Source: Xenopus tropicalis (lineage: Eukaryota > Chordata > Amphibia > Anura > Pipidae). Taken from it: DNA of 64,000 nucleotides. Positions 11,429 to 54,279 of the stretch are shown one piece after another; within the stretch, counting starts at the first letter, position 1; the number at the start of each line of letters is the position of its first letter. Location of the stretch: positions 33,084,201-33,148,200 of the forward strand of contig NC_030678.2 of NCBI RefSeq assembly GCF_000004195.4. Direction: 5' to 3'. The translations under genes were made by a program, and so were the position numbers. Under the pieces are notes generated by a model. That model saw only the letters and a list, made by a program, of their open reading frames with translations. It was not told the DNA's origin and made no database searches.

Positions 11429-11435
11429 AATGATG

Positions 11436-11766: not shown

Positions 11767-11848
11767 TAATCTCTTTAAGAGGCCAAAGAATATTTTGACA
11801 TGTAAGTAAAGGATGATAATAATAATATAGTTATCTTTTTCCCCACAG

Positions 11849-30300: not shown

Positions 30301-30990
30301 CACAGTTGTACTTTATCTGCCATTACCCGCACTAAATACTTATGTAGCTAAGACCATGGCTTATTGTTGCACTGTACTGGCAGGTCAAGGCCATAGGGGG
30401 CACTATATGGGAAATCTTTGGGTGGGAATACTCCATACAAGTGCTTGGCTTTGATTGTGGGTGTGGGGTGCCCCTGTCATGTGGCAAGATAAAAACCTTG
30501 CTCCAGGCGGCAGTATGCAGCAAAAAAGCTGGTCCCGGTACATTTAATAGCTGAAATTCAATTTTTTAAACCAGAAATTTAAACCCCATTATGATGCAAG
30601 CTATGACACAGCCATTATTTGTTCTGGTGCTGCCACTGTTAGTTTATTATACTGTAAAGTGAAGAACATGGCTAGCCCCATGTGAAATTTCATATTTCCT
30701 CTGACCTAGGAATGACTGAACCCTATGTTACCAACGTAACCCCCCTGCCATAACCATAACAATGTAATTTCCAAGAGCTTCAAGGTTCTATACACTTCCA
30801 TGTATGGCATTATTATTTACTACAAAATGATCCACAAAAGCATAGCAAAAAAATGCAAAATCAGAGAATTAATATTTTAATTTATGACTTGTTAAACAGA
30901 CCAATAATGAACCACGCAAAATGTGATTGATTCACAGCCAGTCATGATAAAGAACCTTGAAAATGATCCATGGACCTATAAGACATTTTC
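27303..30990. other. Intergenic region with fragments of short repeats
   Basis: No gene recognised. A dispersed motif, ggactggga-t-aaaataggccct...agattgccagt, occurs at about 29352-29480 and 29873-29990, with relatives at 27912-28110 and 28430-28475, indicating several copies of one short repeat. A fragment of the catacctcccaac element starts near 28604. This region is 3' of the connexin. Confidence 0.45.
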
Positions 30991-30999
30991 TTTTGTTTC

Positions 31000-32061
31000 T
31001 TAAAGCCAAGATTTTTTGATTTTATATATTTTATCGAGGCTACTATGCATACTGTCTGGGCCTTTCCTGGAGGTAGTATCACTGTTGTCATCCTGTGTAA
31101 AGGAAATGGCAGCTGAATGAGAGGGGAGACAACTGATCTTCTCCTGGGATAAACTGGAAGAACTCTTTAGCGCAAACCTTTCTTGTATGGTGTCCTTTAA
31201 GTGTATGAGTAAGCTGTTCTGCTCTGGGTGTAGAACCTTTGGCTTCTTGATACTCTTAAAATCACAGCAGGCAGAGCAGGCTAAGGATAAAATGCGAAAC
31301 ACATAGAACCAACCTAAGTAATGCAGTTCCACAAGGTTCAGAATGAAGCAGCCAAGTCCAACTCCAAACATGAAGTTTAGGAAAACAGTCTTTTCTGTGG
31401 CCCTTGAGACAAAGCAGTCAGTTGTAGTTGGACAAGGGTAGGTATGACATCGGAAAAGGTGAGGCACTTCAAAACCAAAAAGATAATACTGGCCCACCAG
31501 GAACCCAGCCTCCATCAGAGACCTGAGTACCACGTGGACAATATAGATGATGTGCATTTTGTCAAGGACTGGGATGGACCCTTTGAAATCTTTTCTTAAC
31601 TTTGGCTTAAATCCGGTTTCTTTCCATGAAGCATCTTTACCATCTATTTGTTGTTCAGTATCTGGGTTTACATTACTCTCAGACAGGTGTTTTTCAGCAG
31701 ATAGGCTCTGAATCAGCTCCATGACATAGGCCTTTTCCAGTTCAGTCTTCTCATCCTTGGCAATTTTATGCAGGACATAGATGATATAAAAAATGGAAGG
31801 TGTTGAAACCAGGACAATCTGAAATATCCAAAACCTGAGGTGTGAAACAGGAGCAAAACTGTCATAGCACACATTATTGCAACCAGGCTGAAGAGTGTTG
31901 CAGGTAAATTTGGACTGTTCGTCTCCATACATTGCATCTCCCACCAACGTTACCAAAAGAATGCGAAAAATAAGAAGCATTGTCAGCCATATCTTTCCAA
32001 TCACAGTGGAATGGTTCTGGACTTCTGTCAAGAGACGCCCCAAGATAGACCAGTCCCCCAT
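31000..32061 (-). CDS. Connexin (gap junction protein), 353 aa, intact
   Basis: Forms hexameric hemichannels that dock into gap junctions at the plasma membrane. Start ATG at 32061 (MGDWSILGRL), eight bases inside an exon that begins after ttttccttactag. The N-terminal helix is followed by TM1 (about 20-41). Extracellular loop 1 has C54-x6-C61-x3-C65 (CNTLQPGCNNVC) and SHLRFW; TM2 is about 76-98. The cytoplasmic loop is about 99-168 and lysine-rich, and TM3 is about 170-193. Loop 2 has C205-x4-C210-x5-C216, then SRATEKT and TM4 (about 225-250). The tail of about 100 residues is Ser-rich, with ending KSWL. All six loop cysteines are present. EVPHLFRC, QYYLFGFEV and LNLVELHYLG resemble gamma connexins, while GDWS is alpha-like and CNTLQPGC delta-like, so I give no symbol. 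Confidence 0.95.
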   Translation of the reverse strand: MGDWSILGRLLTEVQNHSTVIGKIWLTMLLIFRILLVTLVGDAMYGDEQSKFTCNTLQPGCNNVCYDSFAPVSHLRFWIFQIVLVSTPSIFYIIYVLHKIAKDEKTELEKAYVMELIQSLSAEKHLSESNVNPDTEQQIDGKDASWKETGFKPKLRKDFKGSIPVLDKMHIIYIVHVVLRSLMEAGFLVGQYYLFGFEVPHLFRCHTYPCPTTTDCFVSRATEKTVFLNFMFGVGLGCFILNLVELHYLGWFYVFRILSLACSACCDFKSIKKPKVLHPEQNSLLIHLKDTIQERFALKSSSSLSQEKISCLPSHSAAISFTQDDNSDTTSRKGPDSMHSSLDKIYKIKKSWL

Positions 32062-32069
32062 TTTTGGAC

Positions 32070-33750
32070 CTAGTAAGGAAAAATTACAATATGCACAGTT
32101 TAATGAGGAATATATATATGTTAAAGGTCACTACACCTTTCTCCGCTTTATATGTGCCTGATGAGGTAGATGTAGATTTGGAGTGATACTGCTATAGCAA
32201 TAGTGCTAATGCAATGAATATGGAAGCTCTTTAGCAAAGTGAGTGCTTTCTCTATTGGGGGATTTAGAGAGCTGTGCTGAGTGAACCTGTTCCTTCCCTC
32301 CTGCTTTAAAATCAGAACTGTGCATAGTGGTATCTGTTGGTGATGCCACTACTGCCCAGTTGGTACAGCTCAGCAGAGCTGGCAACCCTCCCAGACAGTT
32401 ACCCTGTGCTGAGGTGTGTCGGTAGGGTGTGGTCAGGGTGCAATGGGTCATGATAAATAACAAATTGGCCATGGTTGGGAGTTCTCAGGGACTGTCCAAA
32501 AACAGCCACCTCTGGCAGGCTGGCAGCTTTGGATCAGAGTAAAACGCAAAGCATGATAATAGCAATCTAAGACTACAGGTATGGGACCTGTTATACAGAA
32601 TGCTAGGGACCTGGGTTTCCCTGATAAAGGGGTCTTTCTGTAATTTGGATCACCACGCCTTAAGTCTGAATAATAATATAAGCATTAATTAAACCCAGTA
32701 GAATTGTTTTACATCCAATAAGGATTAATTATAATCATAGTTGGTCTCAACTAGGTACTGTTTTAGTTTTATGTACTGTTTTATAATTATAGAGAAATGG
32801 GAAATAATTTGTAAAAATTTGAATTATTTGGTTAAAATGGAGTTTGTGGGAGATGGCCTTCCTGTAATTTGGAATTATCTGGTCTACACAATCACATTCA
32901 TTTGAAAGGGGGGGGGGGGTTCAAATGCCCATATAATTAACATTTTAACTATAACCCCAATAATACCATTGTAATGGAAGATTTTGATTGGATATCACTT
33001 AATTTTATTGAAAATGCTATTGTTCTAGGAAACAAATGACATAAATACACAGTAGAATACATGCCTATAAATAGGGATTAGTAATACGTTGGTTGTAATA
33101 CTTGCTTAGTGACGTCACATGACGCTCTGAAACTTTGTAAGAAATAATGTACTTCCTAGTGTAAAATATACAAAATAAATTAAAGCAGGGAACCTAGAAT
33201 TATATTAACAACAATTCTCTATGTTTATGTGTATATAGCCTTATACTTCTACTATAGACACAGGGCATAAAGATAGGGCAACAAGGACATTTGCACTCCA
33301 GCCTTATTATATTGTGTAACAATTGTTAGACATTTTAAGAACGTGCCTAAAACATATTCATCCTGCCACATTGAACTACAACAATGGAGATGCTGGGAGA
33401 TCTGTTGTTTAACAACAGATGAAGGGTCACGCGTGGGATATCCTTGATTTATGTAATATTCTCCCTCTGGTGGGGGACACAGCCTTCTTACATTGCCAAT
33501 GCCTCTCTGATCTAACTTACCGTTATTTACAGAAGGGTTAGTATTATACCATTTTTATAGCATATTTTATAGATTTGCACTCAAATTAAACTCAAATGAT
33601 ACGTACAAAAAAATCTCATTGTAAAGATTACATTTCCTGATCATTTTTCATAATACTTTATTACTTTGTCTCCTTTCAAAATAGAAAAAAGTCTGATTTT
33701 GAAAGTAAATGAAGAATTAAAAGTTAGTGTCAGAGAAGGCAGAAACTTAC
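32070..33750 (-). other. Probable connexin 5' UTR intron
   Basis: On the - strand a donor AAG|GTAAGT (exon end 33751) and an acceptor ttttccttactag|GTCC (exon start 32069) bound this stretch. Connexin genes usually have an untranslated first exon and one coding exon, as here. A truncated MITE sits inside (32574-32884), as does a G-run near 32908. Confidence 0.55.
32574..32884. mobile_element. CAGGTATGGGACCTGTTATCC MITE, copy 2, truncated
   Basis: The left end tacaggtatgggacctgtta is intact. The right half decays at ggaattatctggtctaca and the terminal cccatacctgta is missing. Confidence 0.75.
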
Positions 33751-33850
33751 CTTAGTGGGTGCCCTGGTGTCAGGCAGAGCCAACGACAGTGGTGACAGTC
33801 ACATCGCTGGGTCCCAGGCGAGAGCAGAGTGTATGTGAGGGACCCTGCCG
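33751..33850 (-). other. Probable untranslated 5' exon of the connexin gene
   Basis: On the - strand a 100-nt segment lies between a pyrimidine-rich acceptor (cttacctctccccag) and the consensus donor AAG|GTAAGT. It has no useful ORF. It could instead extend further 5' as a first exon. The assignment rests only on splice-site quality and position. Confidence 0.4.
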
Positions 33851-34733
33851 CTGGGGAGAGGTAAGAGAATAGGCTGACAGCACATATCCAAATTGTTTAT
33901 CTCACAGACTCATTGTACAGCATGGGTGACAAAAACGTTCAATTTACAGTGAGTGACAAAGACATAAGAGTTACATGGGGTCATCTCCTCTGCAGCTATT
34001 CAGCCGCTCAGCACTATAGAACATGCCAGAAAAACACCAGGCAAATAAAGAAACTTTAGGCCTATTTGCATTCAACATGCAACTATATACAATACCAGCA
34101 CACAAGGGAGTCCCTGGGTTCAGTTTCTACTGATAAATGATAAAACTCCGGGGAAGGTTTACTTAGCATGAGAGATGAAACCTAATTTAATGCATTATTT
34201 TCTTCCATATGGAAATATGAACATCTCTTTCAACCTAGTTCTGCCTGTTATCTCCAGAATTCTCTGTTCCCACTAGTTATTCTGCAAAATCTCTGTTTGC
34301 TCAGTCAGGTGTCCACCTCTGTGTAAATCGGCTCATGTAGGGGGTCACACAGTGCTGACACTGAACCTTGTGGAAGCATGTTATATGGCTTGCTGGAATG
34401 AGAACCTGCTAGCTAGATTTGTTGTGATATATATGTGTGTGTGTCAAGCTGCAAATCTGCCCATATAAAACTAACAATAAATGGTCGCTGCAGTATGACT
34501 TCCCCTGAAATTCCTCTCCCCCAATCACATACGCACTTCACAATCTTAACTCCTGATAAACACATTCAAAGCCAATCATAAAACAATCTTGGTGGTCTGC
34601 ACTTCTATCCTCAATCGCATACTGCTAATTGGTTTCCACCAAGCACCCACCATGACTAGAACCAAAGGTTATATTAGAGGCTGAATAGCCAGTGGTGTAG
34701 AATAGGTGGCCTAAAAAAGGCTCTAGGTAGTAA
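33851..34733. other. Unassigned upstream region of connexin
   Basis: No gene seen. A short (gt)n run is at 34432-34443. No clear TATA box could be tied to the connexin exon. Confidence 0.25.
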
Positions 34734-34931
34734 GGGTGAAGACACACGGAGCTACTTAGTAGCAGCTACTTGTCACAGCTACTAAACACCAGAAAATCCC
34801 CTGCCATAGACAATACTAAGAATTGCCTCTGCTAAAACACACGTAGAGACAATTATCAGTAAATGATCATCATTGTCTACTTTTGTAGCCGTGACAAGTA
34901 GCTGCTACTAGTAGCTCTGTATGTCTTACCC
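34734..34931. mobile_element. Palindromic Harbinger-like MITE with TAA duplication
   Basis: Ends gggtgaagacacacggagct and agctctgtatgtcttaccc are imperfect inverted repeats; TAA flanks both sides (34731-34733 and 34932-34934). Internal cttgtcacagctact and agccgtgacaag also pair. Confidence 0.75.
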
Positions 34932-35097
34932 TAAGGGACTCCTCCCCACAATTACAGCTAACACTAAGGGAAGAACTAAAGAGACTACAGCTGGGATTAC
35001 ATGGACCAATATAAGACGCTGGCTAGTTCCACTTATTGTCCTTTTTTAAATTGTCCTCTTTTACTGGCCAGGCTGTGGCTGGTACATTACCCACTAA

Positions 35098-35355
35098 GGG
35101 CTCTGGCACACGGGGAGATTAGTCGCCCGCGACAAATCTCCCTTGTCACGGGCGACTAATCTCCCCGAGTTGCCATGACCCGCCATTCCACCGGCGAACA
35201 TGTAAGTCTGGAAATCGCGCCGCCGCGTGTGCCATCCCGCCGGCGACTTACATGTTCGCCGGTGGGATGGCGGGTCATGGCAACTCGGGGAGATTAGTCG
35301 CCCGCGAACATGGAGTTTTGTCGCGGGCGACTAATTTCCCCGTGTGCCAGAGCCC
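35098..35355. mobile_element. Near-perfect foldback MITE with TAA duplication
   Basis: 258 bp, almost entirely self-complementary. The first ~40 bases (gggctctggcacacggggag...) pair with the last ~40 (...ccccgtgtgccagagccc), and the centre (gccggcgaacatgtaagtc / gacttacatgttcgccgg) also pairs. TAA at 35095-35097 and 35356-35358 is the target duplication. GC-rich and high in CpG compared with the flanks. Confidence 0.85.
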
Positions 35356-35420
35356 TAAGGCCAGTAAAATGCATTTTGCCATTTTAGGTATGCTAAGACC
35401 CAGACAGCCCCAAAATAAAG

Positions 35421-35719
35421 TACAGGTATGGGACCTGTTATCCATAATGCTTGGGACCTGGGGTTTTCTGGATAAGAGATCTTTCCATAATTTGGATCTC
35501 CATAACTTAAGTCTGCTATAAATCAAATAATATAGAATAAACCCAATAGGACTGTTTTGCCACCAATAAGGATTCATTATATCTTAGTTGGGATCAAGTA
35601 CAAGGTACTGTTTTATTATTACAGAGAAAAAGGAAATAATTTTTAAAAATCAAAAGTATTTGCTTATATTCCGAGTTTTCTGGATAATGGGTTTCCAGAT
35701 AAGGGATCCCATACTTGCA
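35421..35719. mobile_element. CAGGTATGGGACCTGTTATCC MITE, copy 3
   Basis: Begins tacaggtatgggacctgtta and ends agggatcccatacttgca; internal ggataagagat and tctggataatggg pair. Complete. Confidence 0.85.
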
Positions 35720-35884
35720 TACAGTGCTAGTCGGTGCCATCTTACAGCAGCATTTGATAGAACATCTCGATTTGGGTTGGGAATTCTGGAATAAACTCTG
35801 GCAGTAAGGGGCACTTTTTTTTACTTTTTTTTTTCAATTTTGAGAAAAAGTTGATTTTTTTTTTTACATCTAGATGTTTTTGAG

Positions 35885-36640
35885 ATTTCTGGGCGGGTTC
35901 AGGCCAACCTCGGTACATTATTTGCGGGTTCAGGTTCTGCTCTCCCCGCCCACAACCTAACACTGCTGGCCTTAGTCTTCCGGGTTCTGAATTTATAGGA
36001 ACAAGTAGTGCTCCTTATGTAAAGTAATATAGTACATAGTAGTGAAGTGCAGGCCAGCCAGATACCCATGGAACCCATGGGTTTACCTGTGGGTTGGGTG
36101 GGTTCAGCCATCCTTGGCACATTACTTATTGGTTGAAGGCGAGTTTGGGTTCAGCCTCCCCGCCCACGACCAAACACTGCTGGCCTTAGTCTTCCGGATT
36201 CTGGTGTAGCTGATAGAGAGGTTTGGTTGTGGACCTGGTTTGGTTACTATCTCTGCAGGTGGATTATTAGAGAGGGTTTGCTGTGGGACTTAATTGGTTA
36301 ATATATATATATGGCTAGGGGATGATAGGGCGAGCCATAGACACCAGAGTATAAGTACAGCCTATGTGCTAGCTAGTGATGTGTGGGTCGAGAAAAACTC
36401 TATCCACACGCGACCCGAACCCACCCTGCTCCCAACCTGAACCCAACCCAGCTTCTGCCCTGTTTTTATAGACCCATGCCCACCCTGCCCCGCAATGATA
36501 TCACAAAAGGGAGGGACATGGTGGGCACAGGTCTATAAATTCAGAAGCTGGAAGTCTAAGGCCAGCAGTGTTAAGTCGCAGGTGCGGAGAGCTGAACCCG
36601 AACCCACCTGTGACCCACAAGTAATGTGCCGAGGTCCAAA
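35885..36640. repeat. Three diverged copies of a ctggccttagtcttccgg repeat
   Basis: ctgctggccttagtcttccg occurs directly at about 35963 and 36177 and in inverted form near 36545-36565 (aagtctaaggccagcagtg). Each copy is close to a gggttcgggttc/cccgcccac block. These look like partial copies of one inverted-repeat element, two direct and one inverted. No coding potential. Confidence 0.65.
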
Positions 36641-36781
36641 TCTTTTTGGATTCTGAAAAGACTTACCTTTGTGAATCTATTTTTTTTTTTTAATTTAACA
36701 TTTTCACTGAAGAAGAAAATTGTGGAGATTCAATGCATACATTCACCAGATCCAATAAATGTTTATATGGAAAGAATATAT

Positions 36782-36856
36782 ATTGTATATATATATACAT
36801 GTACATATATGTATATATATATATATATATATATCTATCTATATATATATATATAC
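36782..36856. repeat. (TA)n microsatellite
   Basis: Imperfect ta/tatc dinucleotide run immediately before the foldback element at 36922. Confidence 0.9.
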
Positions 36857-36921
36857 AAAATGCTGAGAAGCTGCACACCATAAGGTTATGTTGATACCTG
36901 GGTGCCTGTGCAAAAAGTAAG

Positions 36922-37120
36922 TATACAGGCTGGAGTGACGGCACGCAAAGGATTTTCACAAAGAAGTTGCTGGGTCAAAAAATAGAGTAAATTAGAGGTT
37001 TATTGTGACCAGCGTTTCAACTCCACACAGGAGCTTTCATCAGGGATACCACACCACAGTGAAACAAACCCAATAAGCCCAAAAATGGCGCCAATATTGT
37101 TGCTAGTCCGTCACTCCAGC

Positions 37121-37127
<7 letters not shown>
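36922..37127 (-). mobile_element. Small foldback related to the Penelope-like 3' end
   Basis: Perfect 20-bp inverted ends, tatacaggctggagtgacgg (36922-36941) and its complement (37108-37127). Read on the - strand it holds a hammerhead-like core (37007-37043). Also on the - strand, a ggcgccattttt block lies 5' of the core, the same order as in the adjacent Penelope-like element. I infer a non-autonomous, diverged terminal segment of that type. (TA)n tracts flank it. Confidence 0.6.
37007..37043 (-). ncRNA. Hammerhead-ribozyme-like motif
   Basis: The - strand reads CTGATGA, then a stem of agctcc / ggagtt with a short loop, then GAAAC-GCTG-GTC. The CUGAUGA and GAAA cores and the minimal two-pair stem III of Penelope-type hammerheads are all present. 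A convincing stem I is not evident, so self-cleavage is unproven and may need a dimeric form. Confidence 0.5.

Positions 37128-37162
<35 letters not shown>
37124..37162. repeat. (TA)n microsatellite
   Basis: Uninterrupted ta dinucleotides between the small foldback and the Penelope-like inverted pair. Confidence 0.9.
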
Positions 37163-37168
<6 letters not shown>

Positions 37169-37303
37169 CAAATGGATCAGGCACTCACATATCAGCAGGA
37201 TTTAGGGTGCCTGGGTGCAGAATTAAAGGTAAAGATACTGCAGAAAAGATACTCCGCACTCACAGGACTTATGAAAAATAAAGAAATAATTTATTGGTCA
37301 AAC

Positions 37304-37343
37304 AACTAACGTTTCGGCTGGCGCAGCAGCCTTTCTCAAAGTG
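37304..37343 (-). ncRNA. Degenerate hammerhead-like motif at Penelope 3' end (left)
   Basis: The - strand reads CACTTTGAGA-AAGG, stem ggctg / cagcc with loop ctgcgc, then GAAAC-GTTA-GTT. The GAAAC and stem II parts are good; the CUGAUGA box is replaced by TTTGAGA, so activity is doubtful in this copy. Confidence 0.4.
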
Positions 37344-37882
37344 ACTCAGTGTCAAACAAATCCCCTAATTAAACCCAAAAAATGGCGCCAAAAAACCAGT
37401 ATGACATCATCAAGTGGGAGTGTACAAAATTACTATGAAGGTAAATGAGAGAGCAAGAAAGAGAAAATACTAAAAAAGCGAGAAAAGAATATATATAACT
37501 AATGTGAATGGGTTGTTGAGGTGGAACCAGTGTACAGCACCCGTGTTAGAAAAGAAATGTTTAGAAAATAAAGAACAAAGAGCTGATCCCTAATGGTACT
37601 GAACTGTAACTCACACGCGCCAACCGTCTAGGGTTAAAGCTAAATGTACTGATAAAGGTAGTAGCGTTCACCAGACGGCCAAGTTTAAGCCAAAGGGAGA
37701 GGTGATTATGTACAGGACAAAATAATCTGTCCCAATCGCTGTTGTCATGTGTGCCCAGGCTTGCGAGTAGTATTAGCGCTTGATAATTGCGTTGTACATA
37801 AAAAATGCCGAAGCGGCATGCATAGAGCATCAATAACATAGTGTGCGTGGCATATAACACCAAGCAAAAAACGTCACCTGGG

Positions 37883-38277
37883 AGGAAAAACTAACCACCA
37901 AGTATTATATTGCCGTAGTGACAGCTAGTGTCGCGTATGAGCACGGAATCTACCCCACCAGGGGGGACCCGGAAAATCAATACGGTCCACACGAATGTAC
38001 TGTTCACGTAGTAGGCAAGGCTGTCAGAGGCGAAGCTCGGGGGGCACACAGAGCGAAGGGAGGCAGGCGGCAAGGCCGATCGGGTGGTGGTGTCCGGACC
38101 CAGCAAAGGGGGGGACCGCCAGCCACTAGATACAGAACCCTAAATGGGCAAGCGGGGGGGCTAGGTAGAGGCTGCCGTGTGGTTGGTACCAAGGCCGATC
38201 GGGTGGTGGTGTCCGGACCCAGCAAAGGGGGGGACAGCCAGCCACTAGATACAGAACCCTAAATGGGCAAGCGGGGG
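37883..38277. repeat. Extra segment with 119-bp direct duplication
   Basis: aaggccgatcgggtggtggt begins at 38072 and again at 38191, a spacing of 119 bp; the second unit runs on into the sequence shared with the right arm. The segment is absent from the right arm, which joins cacctgg directly to ggctaggtag. Either the right arm lost it or the left arm gained it. Recombination between the ggctaggtag repeats could explain a loss. Confidence 0.75.
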
Positions 38278-38600
38278 GGCTAGGTAGAGGCTGCCGTGTG
38301 GTTGGTACCAGGGATAGCTAGAAGTAAGTGCAAGATGAATAGTAAAAATAAAAGATAAAACCAGAACAGAGGACTGCAGAATAAGAACAGGTAAACTGAA
38401 TTGTACTCATACAAAGGTAAGAGTGTGAAGGAAACAGATAAAGGAGACAGAGTAACCCCACGGTAACCAAAAAGGAATTGCAACAATTTCATATGTAGCA
38501 TATTAAACAACCAGCTTGGTCAGCAACAATATAGCAAACTATAAGGAATAGGGTATTTAAACTATGCGGAACATAGTATAGTCAAGGAAGTAGTCCAGAG

Positions 38601-40505
38601 TCACTTTAAGTAAAATGGGGAGTATGAAACCATTTCATTAAGGCCATTTGGACAGATCGTGTTCAGTCTGTGCATCCATTTCAGCTCGATTTGCAAAAGT
38701 AGTTTATCCCGGTTTCCACCTCTTGTTGGCGGGGGAACAAAGTCTATCAGCATGCTGCGTAGGCTGGACAGCGAATGTTTCTTCAGTAGAAAATGTGCAG
38801 CAACAGGTGTACTCGCTTCTCCTGTGGTGAGGGCAGAGCGTATAGCGGACCTGTGGTTTGCCATACGGTCCCTGAAGGGGGTGATGGTTTTGCCAATGTA
38901 CATAAGGCCACAGGGACATTTGATAAAATAGATGACATATTTAGAGGTGCAAGTGAGTCTGTGTCTGATTGGTATTATACTGCCAGTGTGTGGGTGATTG
39001 AACACGGGGCCAGTTATTAGTGAACTACATGTGGTACAGTTAGGACACTTGTAACAACCAGGGCGGGCAGAGGGCAACCAAGTGGCCAGGGTCTCGGAAC
39101 TGTAGCTATGCATAGGGTCTGTTTTGACTAGTAGGTCACGCAAGCTCCTACCCCTTTTGTAAGCTATGCGAGGGGGAGTCCTGAAGATAGGGGGAAGGGA
39201 GCGGTCATTTTCAACCACTGACCAGTGGTATAAAATGGAGTCAGTTAGGTATTTCTTGTCTGGAGTGAATGTTGTCACAAAGGTAAGCCTGTCACTTTGG
39301 TTTTCACGTGGGGAAGCCGAGTTGGTCTCCAATGTACACGAGCGTGGCAAACTTAGAGCTCTTTCCTTGCTTTGAAGTAAATCATGTAGACTGTAACCCC
39401 TCTGTAAAAAACGTTGGACCAGATCATCCAGTTGTAGATGTAAGAGATGTCGATCAGAGTTATTGCGTACCATCCTGACCATTTGGGAATAGGGAATACT
39501 CCTCAGTAAATGGGGCGGATGGCAGGAGGAATGGTGTAGTAAGGTGTTACGGTCTGTAGGTTTCCTATACGTAGTGGTAGTAAAAGTGGAGCCAGCGAGG
39601 GTAATGGTCAAATCCAAAAAAGCGACCGATACTGGATCTATATGGGCGGTAAACTTGATAGTAGTAGGTAGGTCATTTAATTCCTGGACCATTGTTGCAA
39701 ATTGGTCTTTAGTCCCTGACCAAAGAATCAGCAGATCGTCAATATAGCGAAATAGCCTATAAATATGTGTTCTATATTTTGGAAAGATGTAAAGATTCTC
39801 AAAGTGGGACATAAACAGGTTAGCAAAAGAGGGAGCGACATTAGAGCCCATACTGGTGCCGCTAATTTGGAGGTAGTAGGACAATTCAAATTTGAAATAG
39901 TTCAAGGTCAGGCAGTGATTCAGCAGTGTTATTAAAAATTCAGTGGGAGGTCTGTCCCGGTCGGGTTGGTCTTGTAGGTACTGCTGGATGACAGATATTC
40001 CTTCAGTAATAGGGATAACTGTATACAGAGAGGAGACATCCATTGTAGCGAGTAGAAGTTTGCAAGGTAGAGGGTGTAAGTCCTGTAATTTGCCTAGTAG
40101 GTCACCCGTGTCCCTAATGTAGGTGTTCATTTTCTGTACTATAGGCTGTAGGTAATAATCAACAAAGGTAGAAAGGGGTTGTAACAGTGAGTCACAGGCA
40201 CTCACTATAGGTCGGCCAGGTGGTTTGGTTAGATTTTTGTGGATTTTAGGTAAAGTGTAAAAAATGGGGCATTTCGGAAACTCCTTGGTTAAATAGTTAA
40301 AGACATCTGTGGTAATGAAACCACCCTGTAAGCCTAATAGCAGTGTGTTGTCAATGATTTTCTTATAGGTAAAGCCAGGGTCCCTGTCAAGTTTGCGATA
40401 AACAGTAGTGTCTGTTAGTTGTTGCATGATTTCCTGTCTGTAGTCAGAGTAGTCTAGGACCACTACAGAACCCCCTTTGTCCGCAGGGCGGATAGTAATA
40501 TTGGG
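38601..40505 (-). CDS. Penelope-like RT with GIY-YIG endonuclease (5' truncated, otherwise open)
   Basis: Encodes the C-terminal ~634 residues of a Penelope-type polyprotein, from [12 protein letters not shown] to the stop. The longer open frame reaching 40670 starts with a TTG and its first ~55 residues are antisense of the neighbouring copy, so they are not native. Visible in the 689-residue frame: RPADKGG (61-67), [18 protein letters not shown] (152-161), [10 protein letters not shown] with catalytic D211, [15 protein letters not shown] (271-285), YIDD (309-312), FLDLTIT, a cysteine-rich linker ([10 protein letters not shown]), and the GIY-YIG block YVIYFIKC...YIGKT (578-595) with downstream R and H. 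All catalytic residues are present, but there is no start codon or promoter of its own. Confidence 0.9.
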
Positions 40506-40506
40506 G

Positions 40507-41017
40507 CGACAACCACGGTCCTCTGTGCAGCCACCACCCCGTATATCCACAGCTTCACCCAAGTCCCATTTTTTAGGGACACATTCTCGCCCCCCCCTAG
40601 GGGGCGTCCCAACAAAAGGCGAGGTGGGCGACAACACCCATTCCACAAGAAGTTTACGGCCACGGAACAAGTAGTTTTTAACCTCAGCACATACACCCTG
40701 ACAGAACCTGAACTCTCCCTCCTATCAAAGGGATTGTCCTTTGTCCCCACATCCAAATCTTACACCCTTGACACTATGATCGACATACACAGGTTCCAAC
40801 GCAGTATGAAACTGCGGGACCATTTCCGTACTTCCCCTACTACCATTCTGACACCATTCAGAGCCCCCAGCCAATTCGAACCCCCCAATACCCCGAAGTC
40901 TATTGCAGCATTCACCAGATTACTGATAGACGAAACTGGTAAACACAGATTACCTACAAGCACCTATTCTAATCTCACCATTAGTGAAAGGGAAGCTATC
41001 ACTTCACTGGCCCAAAA
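40507..41017 (+). mobile_element. Central spacer: 5' coding part of right Penelope-like copy
   Basis: The 511 bp between the two arms are unique. On the + strand they read through [20 protein letters not shown] then [14 protein letters not shown], the usual Penelope N-terminal pattern, and continue in frame into the right arm. This shows the right copy is longer at its 5' end, and that the left copy is truncated at the junction. Confidence 0.75.
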
Positions 41018-42922
41018 CCCCAATATTACTATCCGCCCTGCGGACAAAGGGGGTTCTGTAGTGGTCCTAGACTACTCTGACTACAGACAGGAAATCATGC
41101 AACAACTAACAGACACTACTGTTTATCGCAAACTTGACAGGGACCCTGGCTTTACCTATAAGAAAATCATTGACAACACACTGCTATTAGGCTTACAGGG
41201 TGGTTTCATTACCACAGATGTCTTTAACTATTTAACCAAGGAGTTTCCGAAATGCCCCATTTTTTACACTTTACCTAAAATCCACAAAAATCTAACCAAA
41301 CCACCTGGCCGACCTATAGTGAGTGCCTGTGACTCACTGTTACAACCCCTTTCTACCTTTGTTGATTATTACCTACAGCCTATAGTACAGAAAATGAACA
41401 CCTACATTAGGGACACGGGTGACCTACTAGGCAAATTACAGGACTTACACCCTCTACCTTGCAAACTTCTACTCGCTACAATGGATGTCTCCTCTCTGTA
41501 TACAGTTATCCCTATTACTGAAGGAATATCTGTCATCCAGCAGTACCTACAAGACCAACCCGACCGGGACAGACCTCCCACTGAATTTTTAATAACACTG
41601 CTGAATCACTGCCTGACCTTGAACTATTTCAAATTTGAATTGTCCTACTACCTCCAAATTAGCGGCACCAGTATGGGCTCTAATGTCGCTCCCTCTTTTG
41701 CTAACCTGTTTTGTCCCACTTTGAGAATCTTTACATCTTTCCAAAATATAGAACACATATTTATAGGCTATTTCGCTATATTGACAATCTGCTGATTCTT
41801 TGGTCAGGGACTAAAGACCAATTTGCAACAATGGTCCAGGAATTAAATGACCTACCTACTACTATCAAGTTTACCGCCCATATAGATCCAGTATCGGTCG
41901 TTTTTTTGGATTTGACCATTACCCTCGCTGGCTCCACTTTTACTACCACTACGTATAGGAAACCTACAGACCGTAACACCTTACTACACCATTCCTCCTG
42001 CCATCCGCCCCATTTACTGAGGAGTATTCCCTATTCCCAAATGGTCAGGATGGTACGCAATAACTCTGATCGACATCTCTTACATCTACAACTGGATGAT
42101 CTGGTCCAATGTTTTTTACAGAGGGGTTACAGTCTACATGATTTACTTCAAAGCAAGGAAAGAGCTCTAAGTTTGCCACGCTCGTGTACATTGGAGACCA
42201 ACTCGGCTTCCCCACGTGAAAACCAAAGTGACAGGCTTACCTTTGTGACAACATTCACTCCAGACAAGAAATACCTAACTGACTCCATTTTATACCACTG
42301 GTCAGTGGTTGAAAATGACCGCTCCCTTCCCCCTATCTTCAGGACTCCCCCTCGCATAGCTTACAAAAGGGGTAGGAGCTTGCGTGACCTACTAGTCAAA
42401 ACAGACCCTATGCATAGCTACAGTTCCGAGACCCTGGCCACTTGGTTGCCCTCTGCCCGCCCTGGTTGTTACAAGTGTCCTAACTGTACCACATGTAGTT
42501 CACTAATAACTGGCCCCGTGTTCAATCACCCACACACTGGCAGTATAATACCAATCAGACACAGACTCACTTGCACCTCTAAATATGTCATCTATTTTAT
42601 CAAATGTCCCTGTGGCCTTATGTACATTGGCAAAACCATCACCCCCTTCAGGGACCGTATGGCAAACCACAGGTCCGCTATACGCTCTGCCCTCACCACA
42701 GGAGAAGCGAGTACACCTGTTGCTGCACATTTTCTACTGAAGAAACATTCGCTGTCCAGCCTACGCAGCATGCTGATAGACTTTGTTCCCCCGCCAACAA
42801 GAGGTGGAAACCGGGATAAACTACTTTTGCAAATCGAGCTGAAATGGATGCACAGACTGAACATGATCTGTCCAAATGGCCTTAATGAAATGGTTTCATA
42901 CTCCCCATTTTACTTAAAGTGA
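40690..42922 (+). pseudogene. Penelope-like RT/GIY-YIG, right copy, one frameshift and YIDN
   Basis: Two overlapping open frames (to 41795, and from 41711 to 42922) encode the same protein as the left copy plus ~95 N-terminal residues. A one-base loss near 41711 (gttttgtccc here, gtttatgtccc in the left copy) shifts the frame after PSFANLF. The RT catalytic box is YIDN rather than YIDD, removing a catalytic aspartate. The GIY-YIG region is intact. Differences from the left copy are otherwise few (for example V/A before FLDLT, C/R in LVQxFLQ, M/T in RLNxICP). Upstream coding extends to at least 40690 but no ATG is evident. Confidence 0.88.
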
Positions 42923-43890
42923 CTCTGGACTACTTCCTTGACTATACTATGTTCCGCATAGTTTAAATACCCTATTCCTTATAGTTTGCTATATTGTTGC
43001 TGACCAAGCTGGTTGTTTAATATGCTACATATGAAATTGTTGCAATTCCTTTTTGGTTACCGTGGGGTTACTCTGTCTCCTTTATCTGTTTCCTTCACAC
43101 TCTTACCTTTGTATGAGTACAATTCAGTTTACCTGTTCTTATTCTGCAGTCCTCTGTTCTGGTTTTATCTTTTATTTTTACTATTCATCTTGCACTTACT
43201 TCTAGCTATCCCTGGTACCAACCACACGGCAGCCTCTACCTAGCCCCAGGTGACGTTTTTTGCTTGGTGCTATATGCCACGCACACTATGTTATTGATGC
43301 TCTATGCATGCCGCTTCGGCATTTTTTATGTACAACGCAATTATCAAGCGCTAATACTACTCGCAAGCCTGGGCACACATGACAACAGCGATTGGGACAG
43401 ATTATTTTGTCCTGTACATAATCACCTCTCCCTTTGGCTTAAACTTGGCCGTCTGGTGAGCGCTACTACCTTTATCAGTACATTTAGCTTTAACCCTAGA
43501 CGGTTGGCGCGTGTGAGTTACAGTTCAGTACCATTAGGGATCAGCTCTTTGTTCTTTATTTTCTAAACATTTCTTTTCTAACACGGGTGCTGTACACTGG
43601 TTCCACCTCAACAACCCATTCACATTAGTTATATATATTCTTTTCTCGCTTTTTTAGTATTTTCTCTTTCTTGCTCTCTCATTTACCTTACACAGTAATT
43701 TTGTACACTCCCACTTGATGATGTCATACTGGTTTTTTGGCGCCATTTTTTGGGTTTAATTAGGGGATTTGTTTGACACTGAGTCACTTTGAGAAAGGCT
43801 GCTGCGCCAGCCGAAATGTTAGTTGTTTGACCAATAAATTATTTCTTTATTTTTCATAAGTCCTGTGAGTGCGGAGTATCTTTTCTGCAG
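41018..43890 (+). mobile_element. Penelope-like element, right arm of inverted pair
   Basis: Inverted counterpart of 37237-40506, with almost no mismatches by eye over 2.87 kb. It ends at ggagtatcttttctgcagta, followed by a (TA)n tract at 43891-43906. Confidence 0.88.
43785..43824 (+). ncRNA. Degenerate hammerhead-like motif at Penelope 3' end (right)
   Basis: Same layout as 37304-37343 on the other strand: TTTGAGA-AAGG, stem ggctg / cagcc, then GAAA-TGTTAGTT. Here GAAAC has become GAAAT, so this copy is further from the consensus. Confidence 0.35.
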
Positions 43891-44033
43891 TATATATATA
43901 TATATATGTGCGTGTGTGTAGAATGTATGGTATAAGTGCTTGGATAGTGTGATACAGATATAAATATGTGCTGATGTGTGTGCCCAGAGCTATTGAGCTT
44001 GCCATATGCATCCCTGCTGTGCCGTGCCATAGT

Positions 44034-44326
44034 CAGGGCCACCATCAGGGGGGCACAGGGGGGACAATCATCCCGGGCCCGGAGGTTTTTAGCTTTAAAG
44101 CTTTAATCAAGTCCGGGCCCTCACTTCCTCTGGCTCTGGCGGCGTCCTCCGCTATGTGCCGCTACTTCTCCGCTTTTATAAGTTTGCGCCCATGCGTGCT
44201 GACGTCACACCCACGGGGCGCAACCTTATAAAAGCACAGAAGTAGCTGGGAGCCGCGGCACATACCGGAGGACACCACAGCAGCAGGCAGCAGAAAACTT
44301 TATTGTGATTTCTGATGGCGGCCCTG
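44034..44326. mobile_element. hAT-type MITE with perfect 8-bp target duplication
   Basis: Ends cagggccaccatcag and ctgatggcggccctg pair at 14 of 15 positions. gccatagt is duplicated exactly at 44026-44033 and 44327-44334. Inside, gcttttataagtttgcgccc pairs with a later gcgcaaccttataaaagc. An end of the same family is at 862-876. Confidence 0.9.
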
Positions 44327-44334
44327 GCCATAGT

Positions 44335-45136
44335 AGATTATAGCTTTCTGACAAGGGGGTGACGGTGGCAGGATTTAATAGCTTCTCCCTAGTTCCTAAA
44401 AAGCAGGATACATTGCATTGCCATCAACATTTATTAACATTATGGTTTAAGGGAAAGTATAGAGAACAGGGGTGGGGTGGCAATTATTATTAACCATACT
44501 AACCCAGTACTAATTGAGGTTATGTTCCAGCTATAGCGGGAGAATCCAGGATAATTAGATCATTTGGCCCTGGATATGACGATGGGTTTAGGAAAAGTCG
44601 ATCTGGGGACCGCATCAACGAGCCTATGCGGTCCCCGATCCGACTAGATTTTTTAACCTGCCCGATCGAGATCTGGACGATCTTAGGCCAGATAACGGTC
44701 GGGCAGGCCCATCGGTAATACCCATACACGGGCTGATTAGCTGCTGAATCGGTCTAAGGGACTGATATCGGCAGCAAAAATCGGCCCGTGTATGGGGACC
44801 TTAAGGTGGAATCATGCCCTCATAGTGACCAACCTTGTGGGTGAGGCAGGGGAGATATATTATTAGTTACATTATATTATCTAAACAATGATATATTATT
44901 ATGAGAACTAATTAGTAACTGAGAAGGTCACATAAAAGTGAACCCCAATCCCAGTTGAACACAGAATAAATCAATGGCTTGGTGATGTTCCTGCTATTGA
45001 CGGACCATTGTACCCACCCCATTGCCCTTGGAGAAAGGGGACAGGATGGAGTTAGGGTAGAGCCCTCACTTTCTAAGTATTAGTGAGAAACATTGGTCCA
45101 CCTGGGACCAAACACAGCTAGGGCTGAAACTGTGAC
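44335..45136. other. Intergenic, with a partial TAA-site MITE at about 44530-44805
   Basis: gcggtccccgatccgacta, gcccgatcgagatc and atcggcccgtgtatgggga show internal complementarity and resemble the MITE at 59547-59866. Ends are not well defined. Otherwise nothing. Confidence 0.45.
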
Positions 45137-45643
45137 ATAGCTCCCAACTGTCCTGATTTTCGCGGTACAGTCCCTCTTTTCACAGCTCAACCCACAGTCC
45201 CGGATTCTTATTGAAAAGTCCCTCATTTCCCTTTGATCTCCTGCACTGAAGCTAAAAAGATACAAATTTAATTAAGCAAGTAGCTTTTGGCAGAGAGCCC
45301 AGCTCCCAGCCCAGCTTCACCTGCACTTACAAACATTGTTTCTCACAAATAAATGGGCTTTTGGCAGAGAGCCCAGAAAGTTAACAAGTCACTCCTACAC
45401 TGAGATACAATTGTAACTAATAAGCTAAACGGGTCTCTTGGGGGAACTGAGACTTGCAGCTTAAAGGGCAATTTCAGCTTTTTTAGCAAAACTGTAACAA
45501 CACCTAAAACCCCCAGAATTGTGTTTAAACTTTAAATAAAATTTATAGCAAAATGGGCGTGGCATTTGGGTGTGTGTGGTTGCAGAATGGGCGTGGTCAC
45601 ACAATTTTCGCTGTGCCGCCATTTCAAAATGTTGCGAGGAATG
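45137..45643. mobile_element. Second copy of the catacctcccaac element
   Basis: Left end catagctcccaactgtcc, with agtccctcttttc and cagtcccgg motifs as in 23480-23560; right end atttcaaaatgttgcgagga-atg. The ends are diverged and no target duplication is visible. Confidence 0.65.
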
Positions 45644-45789
45644 CAATGAAATAGAGTCATAATATTGGTGACCCTCATACTAAAAAAGTTAATAGAAAGT
45701 GATGTATCCCTAATAAATAAGGTCCAAGGATTGTTTGCCTTGGTATATGTTATGGTACCAACTGTTATATAAATTACTTTAAATAACTA

Positions 45790-46085
45790 TATATATGCTG
45801 TGCGGGGAAGACTGGACTTGTAACAAACTACCCCTGTTTCTGGGACTCCAGAGAATGACCGCCTGGTGATGGCAGTGTGGACTTTTGTTTTACTTTGTTG
45901 GAAATTATTCTGGACTCTGTTTTGTTGACCTTTTTTATCCCTTCAAACACGGAAGCTGAGTTGTGTTTTGTTTCACTGTGAAAAATAAAGCACAGGCAGG
46001 AGCCTGCTAATGTTGCAGACCTGAGTGCCTGTCTCATCTGTGGAGCCGAGTTACCTACCTGCTGCTACCAGATATTCACCCCCCT
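45790..46085 (+). mobile_element. Possible LTR-type 3' fragment
   Basis: A T-rich block with gactctgttttgttgacc, an aataaag signal (45984) and then gaccgag-like text ending in ctgctaccagatattcaccc resembles the R/U5 part of a frog LTR. No partner or internal genes. Confidence 0.25.
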
Positions 46086-46109
46086 TTTAAAATCTTTTCC
46101 AGATAAATA

Positions 46110-46240
46110 TTTAAAGGGGATCTCCACTCAAAAACTGATTTTTTCCAAATGCAATTAAAAGCAACTTTCCAATATTCATGAATTAAAAATGTCCAAAGGT
46201 TTTAAAGCCATTTGTAAATATAGCAGAAGCCAGATGATTA
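46110..46240. mobile_element. T2-type MITE left end
   Basis: Begins tttaaaggggatctccactc, the common start of TTTAA-site MITEs, followed by caactttccaat. The right end is not found. Confidence 0.5.
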
Positions 46241-46547
46241 ACAGACCTGAAGGAAGCTTGCCACAACATTGATCCAAGAGTCAGAATAAGAGAAAAGCAG
46301 AGCTGTCAATCAACCCCAACTAGGGAGATAATAATCCACTCCAGGCCTTTTTGAGACCTTATATCATGTTATCATCTAGTGTGAAGAGGAATTTAGGCCT
46401 AACAAAAACAGGAGTGGATCATTTTCATTATGTGCCATTACCCTAAGATACTGCAGTATAGATTTCAAAGCAGCCATTTACATGTATAAACAAAGTATAG
46501 TTTGGGAAATAAAATACATTTTACCCCACAGGCAACACATTTTAGAG

Positions 46548-46852
46548 CAGTGATCCCCAACCAGTGGCTCGTGAGCAACATGTTGCTCCCCAACCCTTTC
46601 GATGTTGCTCTCAGTGGCCTTAAAGAGGTGCTTGTTTTTAAATTCTGGGCTTGGTGTCGCTTTTTGGTTGTATAAAAAACAGGTGTATTGCTAAACAGAG
46701 CCTTCTGTAGGCTGCCAGTCAAAAAAGGGGCTAACAAATAACCAATCACAACCCTTATTTGGTACCCCAGGAACTTTTTAAATGCTTGTGTTGCTCACCA
46801 AGTCTTTTTACATTTAAATGTGGCTCACGGGGCAAAAAGGTTGGGGATCCCT
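46548..46852. mobile_element. hAT (Charlie-like) non-autonomous element
   Basis: Starts cagtgatccccaacc and ends ggttggggatccct; flanking octamers ttttagag (46540-46547) and ctttagag (46853-46860) match at 7 of 8 positions. gtggctcgtgagcaacatgt near the left and gtggctcacgg near the right pair. A related fragment lies at 51797-51880. Confidence 0.8.
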
Positions 46853-46860
46853 CTTTAGAG

Positions 46861-48160
46861 CCACCCACAAAACCAAACCCAAACCAATCCAGTCTGCACA
46901 TGCATTTTAAAATTTAGCACCATTTAGGAGAAGAACCTCCTTATACTTTTCCCCAGAGCTGGGTCTGCTGTCTTTATTGTTAAATACTGTTTCTGGTAGT
47001 TGCCAGCATTCGCAGATGTCATATTTGGGGGGGTAGTGAAAGGGTTAAATGATCTGAAAGCTCACATTTTCAGTACAGGGATGACGTGACCGGTTAAATT
47101 ACCCAGCCATTATAGTGCAAGAGGCTCCAGTCCAGTTTTTCCAGAAATGTCACCTAAAGATGGCTGCTGGCTCCTAGGTGAGTGAGGCTTGGTGTTACAA
47201 CAAACAACTCTGTTTATGGTGTTTACAAATGGGTGTATAGTAAGGTCAGGCAGATATCTGGTGGGTAACAATAGCAAAGTGCACTAAGTGTTTTCCTAGT
47301 TAGAGAAGGAAAGCTTCAGCAAGGGCAGGTCTAGCTAAATGCCATCCAATAGCAAATATACCCTGTGGAACTTTGTTCTAAATGCAATTATTTGTTGATG
47401 TATACAATGAAATCCAGTTGCAGTCACTATATTTATTACAATTACTAAGGGGAGAGAACCCCCTAACTGGCTTAATAAAAGAAAATGTAATTCTAAGCAG
47501 CTTTCCACTAAACATTAATTACACATTTTAAACCTGTTTTGTCACTATAACTGCTATTTAAAGCAGTATTGGGGAGATTATGATTGTAATTGTGGCTATG
47601 GCACAAAGTAATTACAGAGATTTAGAAGTATGTGCTGACTCTGGGGAGGATAGTAACTTAAGGGATTGTACAAACTTATTGTACAGCGCTGCGGAATATG
47701 TTGGGGTTTTATAAATAAATGTTAATAATAATAAGTTAAAAAATAAAAGCTATTGGTAATTGCACTGGGGCACTTTAGCCCTTACCTGAGTAAATGGGCA
47801 ACATTAGTTGTATATTGCTGTACAACCATATGGCACTGGTTATGGGAATCAGTGAAAGATACTAAATCTTATTTGGGCAGCTCTCTCTCATTTAAGATAA
47901 ATATGTATATAAAAACTGTAACTCCTAAATGACTTGTTACATGGCAATGATGCAGGTGAGCGCTGTTAATAAAGACATTACCATAAAACTCAAAGACAAC
48001 GTGATTTTATTTCGCGGAAAAAAAAAATAAAGAAATATATTGCGGAAATGTTATATTTTCTGATAGATTTCAAATCCGCGGAAACGAGGGAAACCTTGCG
48101 AGGTGACTGTAGGATATAGGCTGAAGGTCTGGCTACGAAAGGGTTACCCCTTGCCGAGGC
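46861..48160. other. Intergenic region upstream of the 48.2-kb promoter
   Basis: No gene identified. At 47675-47735 cagcgctgcggaatatgttg and ttataaataaatgttaata form the 3' tail seen in many frog SINE/L2-type repeats. An ATG-containing stretch ending in CTAG|GTGAGT near 47180 looks like a donor site but has no supporting domain. Confidence 0.4.
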
Positions 48161-48162
48161 TG

Positions 48163-48190
48163 GTCATGTGACGCAATGACATGTTATAAA
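48163..48190 (+). promoter_or_regulatory. Core promoter: E-box, bZIP-like site and TATA box
   Basis: gtcatgtgac (48163-48172; contains TCATGTGA, an MITF/TFE-type E-box core) overlaps tgacgcaat (48169-48177, like ATF/C/EBP composite sites). Ttataaa follows at 48184-48190, about 25-30 bp before the inferred start of transcription near 48215. The flanks have more CpG than the rest of the window. Confidence 0.55.
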
Positions 48191-48214
48191 GGGAGGAGCG
48201 TTCGCCTCCATTAT

Positions 48215-48338
48215 TTCTAACAAGATCCTGAAGGAAAAGAAAAAGGGTAAAAAAAAAAAAAGGGGGGAGGAAGAGGGGAAGCTACAGACGGAACCGGGCT
48301 GAGCTACTGAATGAATGTGACTTGGGCAAGTCCCAGCG
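48215..48338 (+). other. Probable first exon of an unidentified + strand gene
   Basis: Lies downstream of the TATA box; purine-rich (A12 and G-rich run at 48251-48280), it ends at a strong donor, CCCAGCG|GTAAGTA. An ATG at 48311 (MNVTWASPS...) is open to the donor but may be an upstream ORF in a noncoding exon. I found no second exon before 64000, so the first intron would exceed 15 kb. The gene cannot be named from this window. Confidence 0.5.
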
Positions 48339-48715
48339 GTAAGTATGCTGCTTCTCTGTGGGGTTCATGTTGTAGCCGGGCTGCAGGGTTACAGGGTTAC
48401 TGCGCCCACATCGCTGCGCTAGCCCCGACTCCTGCGCCCACACTGCCCGGGGCTCGCTAGGCACTCTGGGAGTCTGAGTGCGGCAGATGCGCCTCACATG
48501 TAAGCGTACGGCCGCCTTCAGGGAAGCCTTTTAGCGCTGGAATGGAGGGACATACTCATATGGGCTGTACTGGTATGAATGGGATTACACACTGGGCTGT
48601 GTAACTGGGGTGGGTTGGGAATTATAGCTATGGATGTGTTGGCTGTAGCCTAATGGAATTGTAACTTGGGCTGTAGGACGGTAATGGTGTGGGGAATTAG
48701 CTTAAACTCTAGAAT
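48339..48715 (+). other. Start of inferred long intron, GC-richer
   Basis: The sequence after the donor retains CpG and GC-rich text to about 48540 (gcgctagccccgactcctgc), as expected for the downstream half of a CpG-rich promoter, then changes to ordinary AT-rich sequence. Confidence 0.35.
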
Positions 48716-49935
48716 TATTGCTGGGGCTGTAATATGATGGGAATGATACTGTAGCCTGGACTGTACAGCTGTAATGGGATGGGAATAATACTGTAGCCTG
48801 GACTGTACAGCTGTAATGTGATGGGAATGATACTGTAGCCTGGACTGTACAGCTGTAATGGGATGGGAATGATACTGTAGCCTGGACTGTACAGCTGTAA
48901 TGTGATGGGAATAATACTGTAGCCTGGACTGTACAGCTGTAATGGGATGGGAATGATACTGTAGCCTGGACTGTACAGCTGTAATGTGATGGGAATGATA
49001 CTGTAGCCTGGACTGTACAGCTGTAATGGGATGGGAATAATACTGTAGCCTGGACTGTACAGCTGTAATGTGATGGGAATAATACTGTAGCCTGGACTGT
49101 ACAGCTGTAATGGGATGGGAATGATACTGTAGCCTGGACTGTACAGCTGTAATGGGATGGGAATGATACTGTAGCCTGGACTGTACAGCTGTAATGGGAT
49201 GGGAATGATACTGTAGCCTGGACTGTACAGCTGTAATGTGATGGGAATGATACTGTAGCCTGGACTGTACAGCTGTAATGGGATGGGAATGATACTGTAG
49301 CCTGGACTGTACAGCTGTAATGGGATGGGAAATGATACTGTAGCCTGGACTGTACAGCTTGTAATGTGATGGGAATAATACTGTAGCCCTGGACTGTATC
49401 AGCTTGTAATGGGATGGGAATAATACTGTAGCCTGGACTGTACAGCTGTAATGGGATGGGAATGATACTGTAGCCCTGGACTGTACAGCCTGTAATGAGG
49501 GAATGATACTGTAGCCGGACTGTACGCTGTAATGATGGGAATGATACTGTAGCCTGGACTGTACAGCTGTAATGGGATGGATACTTAGCCTGTACTGTAC
49601 AGCTGTAATGTGATGGGAATGATACTGTAGCCTGGACTGTACAGCTGTAATGGGATGGGAATGATACTGTAGCCTGGACTGTACAGCTACTGTAGCCTGG
49701 ACTGTACAGCTGTAATGGGATGGGAATGATACTGTAGCCTGGACTGTACAGCTGTAATGTACAGCTGTCTGTAGCCTGGACTGTACAGCTGTAATGGGAT
49801 GGGAATGATACTGTAGCCTGGACTGTACAGCTGTAATGTGATGGGAATGATACTGTAGCCTGGACTGTACAGCTGTAATGTGATGGGAATAATACTATAG
49901 CCTGGACTGTACAGCTGTAATGTGATGGGAATTAT
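48716..49935 (+). repeat. 42-bp minisatellite, about 28 copies
   Basis: Unit built on actgtagcctggactgtaca plus gctgtaatg(g/t)gatgggaatg; the landmark recurs every 42 bp (48791, 48833, ...). GTGATGGG and GGGATGGG versions tend to alternate, suggesting an 84-bp higher-order unit. The copies at 49320-49620 carry many one-base insertions or losses absent elsewhere. Lies about 380 bp inside the inferred first intron. Confidence 0.93.
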
Positions 49936-50489
49936 ACCATAGTGTGTATAGCTGGGGCTGTAATTTGATGGGAACAATACTGTAGCTTTAACAGTGTGGC
50001 TGTAATGAGAGGGAAATAATGCTGTAGGTTGGACTGTGCTGGTGTAATGTGATGGGTGTTATACTGTAATTGGACTGTGTGGCTGTGATAATGTAGTGTG
50101 TGTTGTAGGAACAGTAATGCTGTGGGGATTGTAACTTGGGTTGTTGTGCTGTAATATGATGGGATTTATACTGTAGGACTAATGGTATATGACCTATAGT
50201 TTGGGTGCTAGCACTGTAATAGGAGTTACAACATGGGATGTTAGGACTGTAATGGAAGGAGGAGTAAGTCTGCATTTATTTAATGGGTGGGGATTGTATC
50301 TTGGACTGTAATGGTGAGGAAGTTGTGACTTTTCCTTTGTTAGTAAAAGCACTAGAGCAAGAACTGTAATGGGGTAGAAATTATACTGTAGCTTGGATTG
50401 TAAATCCATTTACAAATACTGTTAAACCACTGAGCATCTTTATGTAATGTATTGAAAAGATTCTAAGAATTACATTTTCCTTTATATAT

Positions 50490-53868: not shown

Positions 53869-53948
53869 AGGACACCCATTACCCTGCCAAACACATTCCA
53901 AGTGCTGTAGGCTGACCCAATCAGTGTTGGGAGAAATAAATTAGATAT

Positions 53949-54278: not shown

Positions 54279-54279
54279 A

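Follow-up and report, generated by a model that had tools for sequence, protein, structure and literature searches.

The DNA analysed here is a window of 64,000 nucleotides from the Xenopus tropicalis genome (C2:33084201–33148200, on a contig of 181 Mb); it contains no N, and positions given below are those of the window unless stated otherwise. It harbours two copies of a Penelope-like element (PLE) arranged head to head, with both 3′ ends pointing outward into (TA)n. Self-comparison of the window yielded inverted ungapped blocks of 1539, 694 and 445 nt (listed as 100% complementary) and of 221 nt (95%), the inner edges of which are separated by 511 nt; the block of the right arm that matches the left arm spans 41018–43890 on the plus strand. 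When the arms were aligned base by base, 8 substitutions were found in 2872 aligned positions, all of them transitions, together with three gaps of 1 nt, one at the extreme end, and a segment of 396 nt (its length in the alignment) that is present in the left arm and absent from the right one. Comparison with other copies marked five of the changes as private to the right copy and the remaining three as private to the left. The inverted repeat with near-identical arms that an initial annotation of the sequence had described was confirmed by these comparisons at the positions given there.

The right arm terminates in CTGCAG directly followed by TATATA, a position termed site A, and the left arm in TTTGGACTT followed by TATATA, termed site B, which is located about 70–75 nt beyond site A. 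The sequence between the two sites, the tail, corresponds to positions 171–246 of the 3′-end query used in the genome searches, and includes a CAGGCAC...GTGCCTG hairpin which is likewise predicted in another subfamily. In the eleven head-to-head units whose ends were classed (see below), 21 of the 22 outer ends are accompanied by a run of (TA)5 or more, as compared to 5 of 391 window stretches of equal length; the lone end without such a run is the B end of locus L012.

Table 1. Features of the head-to-head PLE unit and its flanks (window positions)
Feature	Positions	Strand
(TA)20 tract, left target flank, adjoined by the tail of the left arm	37124..37163	
Left-arm tail, reaching from site A to site B, none on the right arm	37164..37236	-
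Left arm, 5′-truncated PLE copy with part of ORF2 (reverse transcriptase and GIY-YIG) and 3′ UTR, B-ended	37237..40506	-
Tandem duplication of 119 bp, mostly within the segment absent from the right arm	38071..38308	-
Centre junction, 4-nt microhomology GGGG common to both copies	40503..40506	
Right arm, longer 5′-truncated PLE copy, A-ended (without tail), ORF2 frame split	40503..43893	+
"Spacer", belonging to the right copy as its 5′ part (ORF1 end overlapping ORF2 start)	40507..41017	+
T TTT TTA heptamer, in phase with ORF1 where it overlaps ORF2, putative site of -1 frameshifting	40569..40575	+
(TA)8 tract, right target flank	43891..43906	

The 511 bp between the inverted blocks, initially taken for unique sequence, match element sequence in other genomic copies and extend the right copy towards its 5′ end, which rules out a unique spacer. 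A 200-nt query across the centre junction found a full-length match at the focal site only, among the best 39 candidates scored; the other matches were confined to query positions 1–100 or 97–200 and never extended across the junction. The search for further copies with the focal centre, which the initial annotation had proposed, thus returned none among these candidates, and amplification of the focal unit as a whole was discarded. Centres of the other head-to-head loci examined lie at different element positions and show overlaps of 0–4 nt or fillers of 2–28 nt. Fillers of 10–28 nt occur in L013, L015 and L030, that of L015 being a local duplication.

On the left strand, a frame of 706 codons is open, the first ~72 of which lie beyond the arm boundary and are antisense of the right copy. 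Its translation matched RVT_1 with E 2e-6 and 28.1 bits, slightly under the gathering score of 29.6, and shares 63–83% identity with X. tropicalis reverse transcriptase (RT) domain-containing proteins (P0001–P0005, P0007). At E ≤ 0.001, 120 of 203 proteins were listed in the homology search, the best matches being from X. tropicalis, X. laevis, other amphibians and fish, besides unnamed metagenome entries; a sequence search of the PDB gave two matches only (E 0.32 and 0.4). From the RVT_1 match and the X. tropicalis proteins, the focal element is predicted to encode an RT domain. The focal protein had no direct Pfam GIY-YIG match up to E 10. However, its relatives P0046, P0047 and P0051 pass PF01541 in the region aligned with the focal protein, and Y598, Y608, G610, R619 and H623 are invariant in all six sequences aligned in the GIY-YIG region, so that a C-terminal GIY-YIG endonuclease is assigned to it through homology.

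The longer copy L010 carries, in addition to direct pseudo-long terminal repeats (pLTR), an upstream open reading frame of 289 aa (ORF1, counted from stop to stop) which overlaps ORF2 in a different frame. Since the left copy lacks ORF1 altogether and the right copy most of it, both focal copies are 5′-truncated; the right copy is indeed longer at its 5′ end, as noted initially, but neither is full length. The inverted arrangement and the tail at one end of the focal unit, and the tandem pLTR of the relatives L010, L018 and L023, are those of PLEs. Hammerhead ribozymes are frequent, albeit not universal, in PLE pLTRs; searches of 30000–50000 and 36900–38000 against Rfam gave no hammerhead match up to E 10, which was not taken as excluding a PLE because the ribozyme is not regarded as a defining feature. 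By eye, the 3′ UTR of the arms (~37300–37350 and ~43780–43830) shows a hairpin followed by GAAAC, TTTGAGAAAGG, recalling a hammerhead with an altered core; Rfam reported nothing at these hairpins in either arm. The Penelope-like identity, the head-to-head layout and the recent age originally suggested are all supported.

The focal arms differ by about 0.28% (8/2875), whereas their distances to other young copies compared amount to 0.73–1.70% and those to the older copy L030 to 2.9–7.6%. In a tree of arms, which left out two short ones (L010, L013), the arms of one locus were sisters in seven of eight two-arm loci; the exception was L024 (support 84, distances ~0.002). Because the arms of one locus are each other's nearest relatives, they most likely arose in one event. 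It is the shorter arm that bears the tail in 6 of 11 units, including the focal one. The longer arm is the A arm in six units (L009, L010, L012, L013, L024, L030) and the B arm in five (L015, L016, L018, L028, L029). A scheme with a leading and a trailing RT on one RNA, in which the A arm would always be the longer one, was ruled out by these counts.

The presence of one A and one B end is not confined to the focal locus. Loci L009–L031, most of which were picked for their coding similarity, include 13 in head-to-head arrangement, and 11 of these have one end of each kind. Both ends of L027 are tailed, but the 3′ end on the right is unlike the left one and apparently stems from another PLE family, so that L027 looks like a composite locus; L031 was left unclassed, its ends being outside the stretch fetched. 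The assembly (1.451 Gb, 167 contigs) was then searched with three 3′-end queries, for each of which the best 40 of ~1500–1900 candidates were tabulated, i.e. a sample. New classed outer pairs were mixed in 14/14, 10/10 and 14/14 cases, giving a total of 38/38 that includes the 11 loci from L009–L031. Two likely duplicates (C1:73.6/78.9, same unit with other flanks; C4:46.5/18.3, same flanks), if counted once each, reduce this number to 36. A further query, which ended at A and so had no bias to tailed ends, found 14 head-to-head pairs, all of them among the 38 mixed ones, and no A/A pair among its best 40 candidates scored. Its unpaired classed ends comprised six A and seven B ends, some of which may have mates too short or too diverged for listing. 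Single 3′ ends accompanied by a TA-flanked 5′ end were seen in the sequences of L011 (A), L022 and L023 (both B).

If ends were chosen independently and at equal rates, 11 mixed pairs out of 11 would be expected with p = 0.0005 and 24 out of 24 with p = 6e-8; these values presume independent events and refer to the sample of best 40 candidates per query. A row of the B/B type, C5:89219175/89221155, is an inner tandem junction of L010, the outer end of which is A. Pairs that remained unclassed are C7:53217304 (L034), C7:100759054, C9:51513833, C2:63870577 and C6:108809124, besides a side fragment, C5:131577762. In L034 (C7:53217150–53217800), the left arm consists of antisense of the element 5′ region plus the tail, and the outer start is neither at A nor at B in the stretch seen.

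Short (~220–300 nt) palindromic head-to-head PLE ends also recur in TA tracts (L032, L033, L037–L041). L032 and L033 have a common centre and are 99.7% identical as units, but occupy two sites with unrelated flanks, and short palindromes may therefore move as units. The flanks of L037 are also those of L038, indicating a larger duplication. Locus-specific variants of L037–L041 are present in both arms. Several short pairs are nearly equal-armed, and some, belonging to the focal subfamily, end at query positions 59–67 or 92, i.e. near a hairpin at 74–89, where both cDNAs might have stalled.

We interpret the focal structure, with an estimated probability of 0.72, as one insertion of an endonuclease-bearing PLE into (TA)n by two-sided target-primed reverse transcription. 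The element endonuclease would cut both target strands, and each free 3′ end would prime cDNA synthesis on element RNA. The right-arm cDNA would begin at site A, whereas that of the left arm would owe its tail to a start at site B, ~75 nt further downstream. Neither cDNA would reach the RNA 5′ end; the two would halt at different positions, and end joining across the 4-nt microhomology would unite their heads. A and B would each be used once per two-sided insertion, perhaps via a dimeric enzyme holding both. At the focal locus, the anatomy, the TA flanks, the A and B ends, a centre unmatched among the candidates scored and the close relationship of the arms are observed, whereas the cutting and priming of two strands and the repair step are inferred. 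As the tail of the left arm and the 511 nt of the right arm are each private to one arm, neither arm is a plain copy of the other; accordingly, a very recent inverted duplication, one of the origins put forward initially, is not supported, while the single insertion event, its alternative, appears most likely, the arms being nearest relatives. That two-sided PLE insertion follows a one-of-each rule, with A serving as the start on one target strand and B on the opposite one, while one-sided insertions may use either, we consider to be at about even odds. If the rule is true, the insertion complex would be an asymmetric RT pair placed at two fixed positions of the element RNA, and head-to-head pairs would be its direct footprint. 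Neither a strict rule of this kind nor a link of two start sites to head-to-head copies was found in the literature searched, which lacked most subscription papers, a weak negative in both cases.

One mixed pair of ends would likewise result if an already existing head-to-head unit were copied, with a read-through RNA undergoing one reverse transcription from the tailed end; the new centre would be set where the RT switches template across the hairpin of the RNA, and the A and B ends would be inherited. L032 and L033, with their shared centre at unrelated sites, speak for such copying. However, no other site with the focal centre was seen among the 39 candidates scored, the 11 units examined differ in their centres, and the fillers of 10–28 nt resemble end joining; moreover, read-through from outside promoters would presumably be required. 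We regard this route, including the template switch, as unlikely. Self-priming, in which a folded-back cDNA or antisense transcript serves as its own template, as envisaged for rotifer Penelopes (PMC3846280), is consistent with the palindromic short-loop centres of L012 and L032 and would also place locus-specific variants in both arms, as in L037–L041. Yet a copied arm cannot acquire a tail, and since shorter, tailed arms are found in 6/11 units, the focal one included, neither self-priming nor inverted duplication fits without extra steps. Self-priming is thus judged highly improbable at the focal locus.

That the arms were inserted separately, or that a single insertion was later duplicated in inverted orientation, might be suspected from the 8 substitutions and the 396-nt segment by which the arms differ. 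Against this stand the nearest-relative position of the arms, the absence of a TA tract between their heads, the ends that each arm has and the other lacks, and the scarcity of tail-to-tail neighbours, of which the three 3′-end genome tables contained 0, 0 and 1; such a history seems very unlikely. Long near-identical inverted repeats are also a known assembly hazard. The assembly consists of polished PacBio CLR data, and small indels in repeats may be errors; on the other hand, half of it is in contigs > 14.6 Mb (PMC10794172). The window has no N, the arms are distinct by single-nucleotide differences and by the 396-nt segment, and many similar units exist elsewhere in the genome, which makes an artefact scarcely credible.

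Several points weigh against two-sided priming with fixed start sites. Whole units can be copied too, as L032/L033 indicate, and their A and B ends would then be inherited. The simple scheme does not accommodate L034 or L027, the TA tract hides any target-site duplication, the centre overlaps are short (0–4 nt) and uncalibrated against chance, and the 3′-end tables are a sample only. In vitro, no difference in start sites between the strands was seen, as far as the available text of PMC11167929 goes.

The overlap of ORF1 with ORF2, which lies in the -1 frame, comprises ~163–172 nt (in L010, ORF1 spans 3972–4841 and ORF2 4670–7090) and is a candidate for programmed -1 frameshifting, judging from sequence features. 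Across several subfamilies, 12 of 13 copies have the heptamer T TTT TTA in phase with ORF1, L026 having TTTTTTT instead; a GCCCCC...GGGGGC inverted repeat follows after 12–13 nt in the same proportion of copies, again with the exception of L026. Minimum-energy folds vary between copies. Some such heptamer arises in 10–17% of codon shuffles (four single overlaps), and the argument therefore is its conservation across subfamilies rather than its presence. No report of ribosomal frameshifting in PLEs was found in the literature searched.

Left of the unit, a small element with short inverted ends (CAGGCTGGAGTGACGG) lies between TA tracts at 36927–37122. It has a short motif in common with PLE 3′ UTRs and, by eye, a hammerhead-like CTGATGA...GAAAC on the minus strand. 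Further outward, at 35094–35359, there is a 115-bp inverted repeat (93% complementary, 36-nt loop) with a match to an miRNA model under the gathering score. Repeated matches at 11433–11768, 32574–32868, 35421–35721, 53942–54281 and 61914–62201, to stretches of L010 and L014 outside or beside the PLE copies, probably represent another interspersed repeat.

The A and B ends bear on the question of how PLEs come to lie in tangles of direct and inverted copies. Inverted segments also result from L1 twin priming, in which the second target strand likewise primes on the RNA, but the segments then derive from different, non-overlapping parts of one RNA. Both focal arms hold the same 3′ region of the RNA, and L1-type twin priming, as proposed initially, is therefore not supported as stated. 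If A and B are start sites, each head-to-head pair would preserve the traces of reverse transcription having begun twice, separately, which counts against self-priming and explains a locus that could otherwise be mistaken for a recent inverted duplication.

Complex inverted arrangements are known for PLEs, in agreement with the initial annotation, and head-to-head Penelopes with an optional tail on one inverted end have been described: endonuclease-bearing PLEs of Adineta vaga have inverted pLTRs and a tail, those of fruit flies and fish are said to be alike, and rotifer Penelope copies give rise to small RNAs, mainly antisense (PMC3846280, available text). Compared with the A. vaga elements, the focal arms are ~2.9 kb in length, the X. 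tropicalis target is a (TA)n tract in which a target-site duplication is unreadable, and the tail occurs on exactly one end in 38/38 classed pairs, one composite locus having two. The closest biochemical parallel comes from the Poseidon element of Anolis carolinensis (PAc), the purified protein of which cuts and extends both target strands in vitro and initiates reverse transcription internally, at two neighbouring sites that bound the tail (PMC11167929); both properties were counted as support for two-sided priming. In the available text of that report, the start sites are not tied to head-to-head copies. The PAc tail is 30–40 nt long (PMC11167929), as compared to ~75 nt in the focal family, and a hammerhead was not matched in the focal element within the regions searched. 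The two systems resemble each other in having two adjacent start sites bounding a tail and an AT-rich target (PMC11167929), and would also share the cutting and extension of both target strands if our interpretation of the focal locus is correct. For the assay of PLEs in vitro, the pairing of A with B amounts to a concrete prediction.

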